Shown piece by piece: positions 29,340 through 32,808 of a stretch of 48,626 bases of DNA. Positions within the stretch are counted from its first letter, which is position 1. Every line of letters starts with the position of its first letter. The position numbers and the translations under genes were made by a program. Origin of the DNA: Rickettsiales bacterium (GTDB taxonomy: Bacteria; Pseudomonadota; Alphaproteobacteria; Methylaequorales; Methylaequoraceae); the NCBI GenBank assembly GCA_028407765.1, contig JAOOJU010000003.1, positions 1 through 48,626 of the forward strand, read 5' to 3'. Below the pieces are notes generated by a model. That model saw nothing but the letters and a program-made list of their open reading frames with translations. It had not been told where the DNA came from and ran no database searches.

Positions 29340-29618
29340 CTAAATACCATATTTCATTATTGATCTTTGAATTGTATCTACTATTATCAATAAAACAACT
29401 GGAGACAAATCTAAACTACCAAAAATGGGAATAATTTTTCTGATCTGAACTAATAATGGTTCTATCATTTTATATAAAGAGTCCATTATTATATTAATGA
29501 ATCTATTACTATCATTAATTATATTAAATGAAATAAAAATATTTATTAGTACATATGCTATGATTAAGTAACTGTAAACACCAAGAATTCTATATACAAA
29601 ATACCCTAAAATTGACAT
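29340..29618 (-). CDS. YggT family membrane protein
   Basis: YLIIAYVLINIFISFNII...LYKMIEPLLVQIRKIIPIFGSLDLSPVVLLIIVDTIQR. Confidence 0.92.
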   Translation of the reverse strand: MSILGYFVYRILGVYSYLIIAYVLINIFISFNIINDSNRFINIIMDSLYKMIEPLLVQIRKIIPIFGSLDLSPVVLLIIVDTIQRSIMKYGI

Positions 29619-29663: not shown

Positions 29664-31097
29664 ATGAAAAATAAAGATGTCCAATTAGATTTTAATTTCT
29701 GTAGAAATCTAGATTTTCAAAAAAATCTAAATATCTCAACTATAAATGATTTTATATCCTTGATTTTTAAAAAAAATCAACTTGATTCATCTGTTATAAG
29801 AAAACATTTAAAATTCTTAATAATCGAACTTTTTTGTTGTTGGTATGAGGCTCAAGACCAATTCCTTGCAGTTTCTATGTCAAAAAGAGGTTACAGAGCA
29901 AAATCTAGATACAATCCAAATATGATCTCGTCTCATTGTATAAGTGCCATTAAATTATTGAGAAATAACAGTTTAATTGAATTTTATCCTGGCTTTTATG
30001 ATTATAAAAATGGATTTAGTAGACTCTCGAGGATAAAGGCGTCCAAAATACTGGTGAAAGAGTTTAAAAAAATTAATTTTAATATTTATGAAATATTAGA
30101 TTTAAAAAAAAGAGAAACTTTGATGTTATATGATAGAGAATCTAAACTGCAAGAATATGAAGACAATTTTGAAACACATGAGATTAGAGAAGTAGTTAGA
30201 AATTATAATAAGACATTAATCAAAACATTTTTTGATATTCCTAGTCTTGAAGACCCTTGTATTATAAGAGGAGACAATGCAAAAATACCTATTTCGCAAT
30301 TATGTATGATTTGTTCAAAAGACTATAGTATGAATTGGAGTTTGGGAGGAACTTTTTCAGGAAGTTGGTGGAATAAACTTGATATTAAATCAATATCATA
30401 TTTATCTCGACACATGCTGATAAATAATTCAGATACAAGTCACGTAGACCTATCAAATTTGTTTGTACATTTCTTATCAAAAAAAATAAGTATAAAAAAT
30501 TTAAATTTAAATTTTGACTTTTTTAGAAAAAGGATACAATTTATTTCTGAATTAGACCAACTTAATTATTTAATTTTAAAGGGTATAAATTCAAAAAATT
30601 TTTCCGGTTTTTTTAGATCTTTTTGTAATGATAAAAAAAAACTTGGTATAGAAAAAAAAATAACTAAACACGACTTACAAAACTTTATAGACTTAGTTGA
30701 AAGAACTAATAATCAAATTTTTAGAAGATTCTTTTCAAATTCTAATTTAAGTTGGGATATATTTGTTTCAAAAATTTTTTATGATTTGATGAGAAGTATA
30801 GGTACGACTAATATACCTTTAATTAAAGTTAAGGATAAGGTTTTTTTCCAAACAAAATTTGAAAAAAATATTATTGATAGATTAAGTGGTTGCTTAACAA
30901 AACTAATAGGAATTGATGATATTAATATAATTAGTAAAAAGTGTTTTAAATATGAATTCGAAAAGAAAAATTCCATACTCGATACATTTATTGGAAAAAA
31001 TCTGTCTTTTTCAAAAAGATATATTGAAAATAAGAAGAATTTTTTTAAATTAATAAAGACTAATAAAATTTTAATAAACCAAAGTTTAAAATATTAA
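29664..31097 (+). CDS. Conserved uncharacterised protein; divergent member of a 'GGRFYGGWWQ' family with possible polymerase-palm-like motifs
   Basis: 477 aa; SKRGYRAKSRYNPNMISSHCISAIKLLRNNSLIEFYPGFYDYKNGFSRLSRIKAS; LKLQEYEDNFETHEIREVVRNYNKTL; NWSLGGTFSGSWWNKLDIKSISYLSRHMLINNSDTSHVDLSNLFVHFL; IFYDLMRSIGTTNIPLIKVKDKVFF. Pattern matched from memory; function inferred only. Confidence 0.6.
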   Translation: MKNKDVQLDFNFCRNLDFQKNLNISTINDFISLIFKKNQLDSSVIRKHLKFLIIELFCCWYEAQDQFLAVSMSKRGYRAKSRYNPNMISSHCISAIKLLRNNSLIEFYPGFYDYKNGFSRLSRIKASKILVKEFKKINFNIYEILDLKKRETLMLYDRESKLQEYEDNFETHEIREVVRNYNKTLIKTFFDIPSLEDPCIIRGDNAKIPISQLCMICSKDYSMNWSLGGTFSGSWWNKLDIKSISYLSRHMLINNSDTSHVDLSNLFVHFLSKKISIKNLNLNFDFFRKRIQFISELDQLNYLILKGINSKNFSGFFRSFCNDKKKLGIEKKITKHDLQNFIDLVERTNNQIFRRFFSNSNLSWDIFVSKIFYDLMRSIGTTNIPLIKVKDKVFFQTKFEKNIIDRLSGCLTKLIGIDDINIISKKCFKYEFEKKNSILDTFIGKNLSFSKRYIENKKNFFKLIKTNKILINQSLKY

Positions 31098-31098
31098 G

Positions 31099-31509
31099 AT
31101 GAGTAGTTATTCAAAATCAGGTCTGGAACAATTGAAATTTTCAAGAGGTTCCAAAATTTATTCAAAAGGTGAAAAAGCTTTTTTTGCGTATTATGTTCAT
31201 TCAGGAAAAGTAAATATTTATAGTCCTGGAGGTTTACTACTTGGGCAGATCGGTGAAGGGGAAATTTTTGGTGAAAGAGGACCTTCTTTGAGTGAAGCAA
31301 GATCTGTGACAGCTGAAGCCGCTTCAAACTGTATCTTATTTCCTATAAGCGAAAAAACAATAAAGGAAAAGATCGAAAAAGCTGATCCAGTTATAAGGGC
31401 TATGGTAAGAAGTTTATTAATTCGGCTTAATGATATGAATGTAAAAGGTGAAGATTTCTGGAGAAATCTAAACATCATGACTTCTTTGACAGAAAAAATA
31501 GATAAATGA
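31099..31509 (+). CDS. Stand-alone cyclic-nucleotide-binding (cupin-fold, Crp-like) domain protein without HTH
   Basis: FSRGSKIYSKGEKAFFAYYVHSGKVNIYSPGGLLLGQIGEGEIFGERGPSLSEARSVTAEAASNCILFPIS; 136 aa, no DNA-binding domain visible. Confidence 0.85.
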   Translation: MSSYSKSGLEQLKFSRGSKIYSKGEKAFFAYYVHSGKVNIYSPGGLLLGQIGEGEIFGERGPSLSEARSVTAEAASNCILFPISEKTIKEKIEKADPVIRAMVRSLLIRLNDMNVKGEDFWRNLNIMTSLTEKIDK

Positions 31510-31527: not shown

Positions 31528-32808
31528 CTAAAGTGTATTTTTTCCTTGTCTGTGAAGAGTATTATCTTCTCCATTAACTAAATTCCAAAACTGATCCATG
31601 TAATCTTTACCGAACCTATTAATTGAGAATTTTTTGTAGTTAAACTTTTCAGTAATATCCGGTTCATTTAGAATATTTTCCGCAATTGACTCTCCAAGTA
31701 GTGGTGAGTATTTCATAGCTTGTCCAGAACCCAAAATGTGAAATAGGTTTTTGTATTGACTATCATTTCCAAGAATAAATCTAAGATCAGGCGTTATGTC
31801 AAAAAAAGATCTATAACCATTAGAGTATACTGTATTATCAATATTAGAAAATCTTTTTCTCGCTATATCTTCATATGTTTTGATTTGATTATATGCTAAG
31901 CTTTGGTTCATAGGTTCATTTAAATACTCTCCGCCATTTACAGCACATAAATCATTAATGAAACTTTTTGCAATCTCGTATACTGAACGTTTTCTTGGCC
32001 TATGAGCATGGAGCTTATTTCCTCTCCATGATCTAAAATAACAAAGATTCACATAATCAGCTATTATGGGGTACTCATGTCTAATTTGTTTTGGACTTTC
32101 CATCCAATTTACAACGGAAACCGGTTCTATGGTTACTGGAATTTTAAGTCCTATTTTTTGGAAAAGTTGAGGGCTCCAAGCACCAACAGCATTAACAAAA
32201 TTTTTCGCAGAAAATTTTCCTTTATTAGTAATACATGTAGTAATATCGCTCGATTTATGAAGTATACTATCTACTTCCGTTTTTTCAAAAACATCTACTC
32301 CATTGAAATCTAATGCATCATAAATTGTGGATCTAAGGATACTTGGATCAATTTGAAGTGCTTCTGGCTCGAAATAATATGATTCATTCTCATTGACTAT
32401 AAGACTGTCACCACATAAATCTGATGCAATTACGTTGTCAATTTCTTTAAAAGAGACATTTATAGATTCCATACGTTTTGAAAGTTTATTCCACGCAATA
32501 TTCTTCCCGTCTTGATTTTTTTTTGCAATCCAAATGGCTCCAAATTGCTCCAAGTCCATATCTATTCCCCAAATGGATCCTAGGTTTTTCCATAGCTTAA
32601 TACTTTCGGTAGCCATTATTGATGCATCTTGATCTGCATTAGCTGCTCTAACTATGCCTGAGTGTCTTGATGACTCTGCTGCACATAGTACTGATTTATC
32701 AATCAAACAAACTTTCTCTTTTTTGTTTCGTTTATTTAATTTATGCTGTAAAGAAATAGCAGTTGATGCGCCTAAACAACCCCCACCGATAACTAAAGTA
32801 TGATACAT
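31528..32808 (-). CDS. FAD-dependent oxidoreductase (DAO family, sarcosine oxidase beta-like)
   Basis: HTLVIGGGCLGASTAISLQHKL; SSRHSGIVRAANAD; FVNAVGAWSPQL; FHILGSGQAMKYSPLLGESIAE. Confidence 0.87.
   Translation of the reverse strand: MYHTLVIGGGCLGASTAISLQHKLNKRNKKEKVCLIDKSVLCAAESSRHSGIVRAANADQDASIMATESIKLWKNLGSIWGIDMDLEQFGAIWIAKKNQDGKNIAWNKLSKRMESINVSFKEIDNVIASDLCGDSLIVNENESYYFEPEALQIDPSILRSTIYDALDFNGVDVFEKTEVDSILHKSSDITTCITNKGKFSAKNFVNAVGAWSPQLFQKIGLKIPVTIEPVSVVNWMESPKQIRHEYPIIADYVNLCYFRSWRGNKLHAHRPRKRSVYEIAKSFINDLCAVNGGEYLNEPMNQSLAYNQIKTYEDIARKRFSNIDNTVYSNGYRSFFDITPDLRFILGNDSQYKNLFHILGSGQAMKYSPLLGESIAENILNEPDITEKFNYKKFSINRFGKDYMDQFWNLVNGEDNTLHRQGKNTL

Follow-up and report, generated by a model that had tools for sequence, protein, structure and literature searches.

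The 477-aa protein encoded at positions 29664..31097 (+ strand, stop included) of the window, i.e. the whole stretch of 48,626 nucleotides analysed here, is proposed to be a domesticated, catalytically degenerate descendant of the phage polymerase group divPolA2 (probability of about 0.8), which would most likely act as a DNA-binding polymerase fold together with a cNMP sensor. Computational analysis showed its descent from divPolA2, the loss of residues which are invariant in its relatives, its fixation in an order of bacteria, purifying selection and its coupling to a cNMP-binding gene. Its present function is probably a new one, other than polymerisation, next to that of this cyclic-nucleotide sensor. 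A sequence-only reading had suggested that the protein was domesticated or repurposed within an otherwise housekeeping locus, which was borne out by phylogeny, synteny and dN/dS. New are the order-wide fixation next to yggT and the cNMP gene, the origin from alphaproteobacterial copies with intact sites, the catalytic loss, the selection and the retention of PolA. To our knowledge, domesticated viral polymerases without catalysis are rare in bacteria; here, a divPolA2 descendant that is very likely dead has become fixed in a whole order of marine bacteria, which are abundant and have small, streamlined genomes.

The window belongs to an alphaproteobacterial assembly of 1.13 Mb (66.7% complete), and its source order is the HIMB59/AEGEAN-169 group, AEGEAN-169 having been equated with HIMB59 (PMC10308909). 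In the ORF list of the window, the 477-aa frame starts with ATG, and the motifs quoted from it by the earlier reading were found in place. Its definition as a degenerate divPolA2-type (family-A-polymerase-fold) protein was obtained from the ORF list, homologues, AlphaFold and Foldseek. Profile searches detected the gene in 29 of 32 genomes and in all 12 genera of the order, each time in single copy, while the three genomes without it are 74–80% complete. Comparison of 28 GTDB contigs revealed an identical position in 28/28 loci, with the fixed order argG-folD-yggT-(477-aa gene)-cNMP-(amino acid oxidase-like)-pabB-pabC-ccmH, in which the amino acid oxidase-like label is derived from sequence. 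The divergent neighbour yggT (YGGT family, 29340..29618, - strand, Pfam E 1.7e-13), with folD beyond it, forms a left flank that is fixed order-wide. In one member of the order (L084), the amino acid oxidase-like gene (31528-32808, - strand, in the window) is absent and pabB directly follows the cNMP gene. No structured RNA was found in the window.

The identity between the copies of the order amounts to 36–50%, whereas folD, argG and the cNMP protein reach 65–84%. The 477-aa protein thus evolves faster than its neighbours, yet under clear purifying selection: dN/dS was about 0.08–0.15 in close pairs (dS < 0.9), alike in both halves of the protein; saturation of dS makes the values of distant pairs unreliable. 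None of the 29 ORFs, from genomes of the 12 genera, contained an inactivating stop or frameshift. The genomes keeping the gene are streamlined (1.0–1.4 Mb), and streamlined marine bacteria usually lose unnecessary genes. The distribution over 29/32 genomes, the low dN/dS and the conserved synteny demonstrate that this is a real gene and not a chance ORF. A pseudogene was rejected on the basis of dN/dS, and a recent prophage remnant confined to one genome on the basis of the order-wide synteny. Replacement of the host PolA was also rejected, since an ordinary PolA was identified in 29 of the 32 genomes. In one genome of the order, a weaker second DNA_pol_A gene (622-aa frame, G031:C26:9169-10320) is present in addition to PolA.

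DivPolA2, a variant of family-A polymerases, was described in 2024 (Yutin et al.) in Barbaviruses and other tailed phages (Caudoviricetes): its palm is active, a homologue of the thumb is missing, its N-terminal domain has no known relatives, and a role as repair DNA polymerase or as RNA polymerase was proposed (PMC11348598). The paper deals with phage genes only, with an intact palm active site (PMC11348598). In the literature searched, the name divPolA2 was found for one work only (preprint and article), and no inactivated or cellular divPolA2 was found. The group corresponds to about PHROG family phrog_4756. The window protein matched phrog_4756 with E 7e-7, the match covering residues 38-188 only, and 13 of the 18 members of the order's alignment gave a match to the same family, while a second, better phrog_4756 match was found in no member of the order. 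A tblastn match to plasmid pBEN of Paracoccus versutus (E 4e-22) covered residues 47-322. The alphaproteobacterial, plasmid and phage family named by the earlier reading is thus real, these two matches being joined by 286 phage records with a family member (Vibrio, Rheinheimera, Aeromonas, Shewanella and others, Barba phages included), but it is not uncharacterised as presumed, having already been named divPolA2 (PMC11348598).

The phage link required an intermediate relative, as the window protein itself gave no tblastn match in phages. Scans of viral contigs with single proteins were equally without success, while a scan with short motifs revealed 51 loci with a family member, a procedure which biases the viral members towards RFYGG[WF]W / LP[IV]HD[SA]F. 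Two profiles built from active members scored the window protein with 119 and 141 bits, and AUR84708, a published divPolA2 representative, with 142 and 113 bits; the same profile that gave 142 bits for the latter gave 119 bits for the window protein. None of 200 shuffled control sequences was reported, which excludes a chance match. The C-terminal tail SxRYxxxxxxF is common to the window protein and its active relatives. It is nearly certain that the 477-aa protein is homologous to divPolA2 over its full length and has a polymerase fold. The phrog_4756 profile also matched a genuine PolA (G244) with E 2e-4, and one phage member of the family matched a phage gene annotated as DNA polymerase with E 8e-5.

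Among 385 sampled alphaproteobacterial genomes, 32 carried the family, as a scattered accessory gene, and Paracoccus, Thioclava and Neorhizobium also have it on plasmids. Of the 22 alphaproteobacterial chromosomal loci, 12 contained a tyrosine-integrase cluster and six a serine-recombinase cluster, which places these copies on mobile elements. The window protein falls in the size class of known divPolA2 (400–600 aa), with the same succession of an N-terminal globular domain and a palm, and without a 3'-5' exonuclease domain. However, known divPolA2 is a patchy phage gene, encoded by the phage alongside its regular polymerase, whereas the window gene is a chromosomal, vertically inherited core gene of the order that almost certainly forms an operon with a cNMP-binding gene and has lost the catalytic residues. 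As an intact palm is part of the definition of divPolA2, the window protein was filed as a degenerate, domesticated descendant and not as a working divPolA2.

The structure of the window protein was predicted by AlphaFold without templates from 28 sequences, including four viral ones with about 15% identity, giving a pLDDT of 84.2 and a pTM of 0.85. In this model, Asp262 ends a strand (258-262) that is followed by a helix (263-275), and Asp391 lies in the turn of a hairpin (386-389/392-396) that is followed by a long helix. As modelled, the strand with Asp262 and the hairpin with Asp391 form the palm arrangement of a family-A DNA polymerase. Foldseek against the PDB opened with an unbroken run of about 34 family-A DNA polymerases, headed by apicoplast PolA (E 2.6e-5; probability of the top match 1.00) and also containing M. 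smegmatis Pol1, Taq, pol theta and pol nu; the TM-scores to these were low (0.16–0.31), as expected for a divergent fold. The fold match implies that the two Asp would lie close to each other in space. Against viral models, the list was led by divPolA2-type phage proteins, with E values from 1e-17 to 1e-12 and TM up to 0.61–0.66; one of these, from Rheinheimera phage Barba31A, bears the name DNA polymerase, and PolA proteins came after. A viral relative, modelled independently (pLDDT 81.6), gave family A in all 50 PDB matches listed, with a best E of 7.9e-6. The family-A polymerase-like character first suspected from the motifs is therefore supported by both structure libraries, and computation on the predicted model showed a polymerase-type fold for the C-terminal two thirds of the protein, the alignment of the palm half being uncertain away from the motifs.

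Like PolA (PF00476), the model of the window protein displays a palm-type strand and hairpin with two Asp, and the active relatives share with PolA the order of the TGR-like, A, B and C motifs. In contrast to PolA, the window protein has no exonuclease domain (no exonuclease family in the Pfam scan), no match above the Pfam cut-off of DNA_pol_A and no catalytic Arg, Lys or His. Single-subunit (T7/mitochondrial-type) RNA polymerases (PF00940) were considered as well: the motif C of T7 RNA polymerase is HDSF, as in the active relatives, and not HDE, a few relatives gave sub-threshold Pfam RNA_pol matches (E 0.11–0.15), and a mitochondrial RNA polymerase appeared at rank 48-49 in the Foldseek list of the window protein. 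However, there is no significant sequence match to these enzymes, the protein is far smaller, and DNA polymerases score better.

The motifs were located on the protein from alignments, the model and column counts. GGTFSGSWW (residues 228-236, 30345..30371, + strand) is the counterpart of GGRFYGGWWQ; its WW is invariant across the order, while the Arg invariant in active relatives is a Thr in the window protein. The motif A equivalent HVDLS with Asp262 (30441..30455, + strand) lies at the strand-to-helix transition described above, the motif B helix spans residues 297-309 (30552..30590, + strand), and the motif C hairpin, IKVKDKVFF with Asp391, spans residues 386-396 (30819..30851, + strand). 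HVDLSNLFVHFL begins at residue 260 and IFYDLMRSIGTTNIPLIKVKDKVFF at residue 371. The distance between Asp262 and Asp391 is 129 aa, and not about 185 aa as estimated by the sequence-only reading.

In order to assess the state of the active site, alignment columns of about 64 active sequences (8 sister, 14 other alphaproteobacterial and 42 viral) were compared with those of 26 sequences of the order. Invariant or nearly so in the relatives are the GGR Arg, a further Arg 14 positions downstream of it, the Glu two positions ahead of motif A, the motif A Asp, the Arg and Lys of motif B, and the His-Asp of motif C, which we take to include, judging by motif spacing, the equivalents of R668, D705, R754, K758, H881 and D882 of E. 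coli Pol I. The GGR Arg was found in 64/64 active sequences, while L, I, K or T occurs in the order and Arg is not among its common states. The Glu before motif A was present in 62/64 active sequences versus 0/26 of the order (Y/F/H), the motif B Arg in 63/64 versus 3/26 and the motif B Lys in 64/64 versus 0/26 (C/N/Y/F). The RxxxK signature of the dNTP-binding O-helix is thus replaced by L297 and N301 in the window protein. The motif C His was present in 63/64 versus 0/26 (K/R/Q/G; Lys390 in the window protein) and the motif C Asp in 64/64 versus 23/26 (E in 3), the 100% of the viral sequences at motif C being biased because patterns of this motif served in part to gather the set; no such bias affects the columns of the Arg, the Glu, motif A and motif B. 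The motif A Asp was found in 64/64 versus 19/26 (N in 6, S in 1). The earlier reading was right about the loss of the motif C His and of the residues after motif A, but the two Asp are not simply kept, and the loss, which extends to the GGR Arg, the Glu before motif A and both motif B residues, was understated. Very likely, normal polymerase activity was lost in the protein of the order, and the selection on the gene cannot be for polymerisation of the usual kind.

The phylogeny was calculated from 77 sequences with a quick method. All copies of the order formed one clade (SH-aLRT 100) with a long stem (1.67 changes per site), nested inside alphaproteobacterial copies of two groups (L033/L036/L037/L039/L042, support 95, and L032/L040/L041, support 97), all eight with intact motifs. 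This nesting and the intact motifs of the neighbours point to a single capture of an active copy that preceded the radiation of the order, and to the loss of catalysis on the stem. In this scenario, a mobile element would have brought the active copy into the site between yggT and the forerunner of the cNMP gene prior to the diversification of the order; later, the protein would have lost polymerase activity but kept nucleic-acid binding.

The N-terminal domain is probably a winged helix (residues 43-126, 29790..30041, + strand), as judged from the order of its modelled elements (helix-strand-helix-helix-strand-strand: helix 43-62, strand 67-71, helices 74-78 and 91-101, strands 105-113 and 118-126). 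The same order of elements was obtained in the model of the viral relative. The block SMSKRGY..SRYNPN.ISS within this domain is the most conserved part of the protein, and 23 of the 55 residues between positions 46 and 100 are invariant in the order's alignment (majority fraction 0.78). Pfam winged-helix matches of relatives were below significance. This domain is predicted to be probably DNA-binding.

Directly downstream and co-directional lies a gene for a 136-aa protein with a cNMP-binding domain and without DNA-binding domain (31099..31509, + strand, Pfam PF00027 E 4.7e-13), which starts 1 bp after the stop of the 477-aa gene. The gap between the two genes was -11 to +21 bp in 26/26 measurable loci, and they are thus almost certainly co-transcribed. 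The cNMP protein shows 74–84% identity between loci of the order, and in a comparison of 73% identity inside the order with at most 38% outside it is, as an orthologue, specific to the order. Its phosphate-binding cassette looks intact, with FGERGPSLxxxRS invariant or nearly so, and class III nucleotide cyclases were identified in 26 of the 32 genomes of the order. In one locus (G004:C20, L006/L073), the frame of the 477-aa gene runs into the cNMP gene, giving 608 aa; this apparent fusion lies in a stretch with many Ns and is probably an assembly effect.

From gene order and domain content, a cNMP-regulated DNA-binding role of the pair can be put forward tentatively. The window protein would be a non-catalytic DNA-binding protein made of the N-terminal winged-helix-like domain and the polymerase cleft, the HTH-less cNMP-binding protein would be its co-translated sensor or regulatory partner, and both would form a two-piece cNMP-responsive DNA-binding regulator. 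If both genes act as one unit, cNMP-binding and DNA-binding domains come together as in CRP/FNR regulators; unlike these, the pair consists of two separate proteins, and the DNA-binding part would be a pseudo-polymerase and not a CRP-type HTH. Somewhat more doubtful still is the view of the pair as an order-wide new type of regulator, in which a dead mobile-element polymerase binds DNA under control of a separately encoded cyclic-nucleotide sensor. The gene of the order connects an unexplained phage polymerase group, of which its discoverers could not tell whether it makes DNA or RNA, with a host lineage using the fold without the active site, so that binding and catalytic roles become separable experimentally. 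A core gene that had been only 'hypothetical' in the AEGEAN-169/HIMB59 clade also gains a name and a testable role.

A residual enzymatic role and an antiviral role are both less likely than a cNMP-responsive regulator. The protein might still be an enzyme, a rewired nucleotidyltransferase or polymerase using the two Asp and new basic residues (K306, K390/R390 and K392, nearly invariant in the order). As both Asp are kept in most members, some metal-dependent chemistry may be possible; K306, W364 and R452 are new invariant residues of the order, and the palm half is also under strong purifying selection. However, the motif A Asp is replaced in seven and the motif C Asp in three of 26 members, and the GGR Arg, the motif B Arg/Lys and the motif C His are lost throughout the order, which makes an enzyme unlikely. 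Slightly less probable again is an order-wide antiviral function, by which a dead relative of phage polymerases would block the replication of phages or mobile elements, switched by cNMP with a Pycsar-like logic. Descent from a phage and mobile-element family, fast evolution relative to the neighbours and the resemblance of the cNMP domain to those of Pycsar effectors (PADLOC E 2.9e-5) are in line with it, but this match is generic and expected of any cNMP domain, the partner is very highly conserved, and the fixed place in single copy across the order is unlike patchy defence genes. The 477-aa protein itself matched no PADLOC-DB model, and a known anti-phage defence gene was rejected on that basis.

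That the protein is unrelated to polymerases, with a chance motif match and only the N-terminal DNA-binding domain in common with the phage family, is very improbable. Searches of Pfam, NCBIfam, PADLOC and PDB sequences with the window protein gave no useful match and none to a polymerase, PDB profile searches with three alignments gave chance matches only, and the PHROG match is limited to the N-terminal part. Against this stand the extent of the Paracoccus match up to residue 322, the shared C-terminal tail and the Foldseek results led by family-A polymerases and full-length phage relatives. Least probable of all is a functionless, decaying remnant of an integrated element, to which the lost catalytic residues and the origin beside integrases might point; dN/dS of about 0.1 and retention in the streamlined genomes already refute it, and the 29 uninterrupted ORFs also speak against it.

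Several divPolA2-type genes were found in particular contexts. Contig G135:C14 (21,261 bp, L213/L214) contains about 2.3 near-identical head-to-tail copies of a unit of about 8.9 kb with an intact divPolA2-type gene, RepA_C, ParA, a resolvase, a D12 methyltransferase and Sel1 repeats; its make-up suggests a concatemeric assembly of a small plasmid (or tandem element). The divPolA2-type gene of this unit shows a Cro-type HTH match near its C-terminus; a role as replication initiator of the 9-kb plasmid was rejected, as the plasmid has its own RepA_C. Three alphaproteobacterial loci (L196, 7313-7834; L203; L204) have an RNase H gene next to the divPolA2-type gene, either as functional partner or as host gene at the integration site. 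Vibrio phage ICP1, a cholera phage, encodes a divergent divPolA2-type member annotated as hypothetical (L068, 5584-6888), with VYDE and not VHDS as motif C. In Shewanella phage KASIA (L069, 4662-6011), the divPolA2-type gene is located near genes annotated as RNA polymerase and AAA ATPase and is followed by the large terminase gene.
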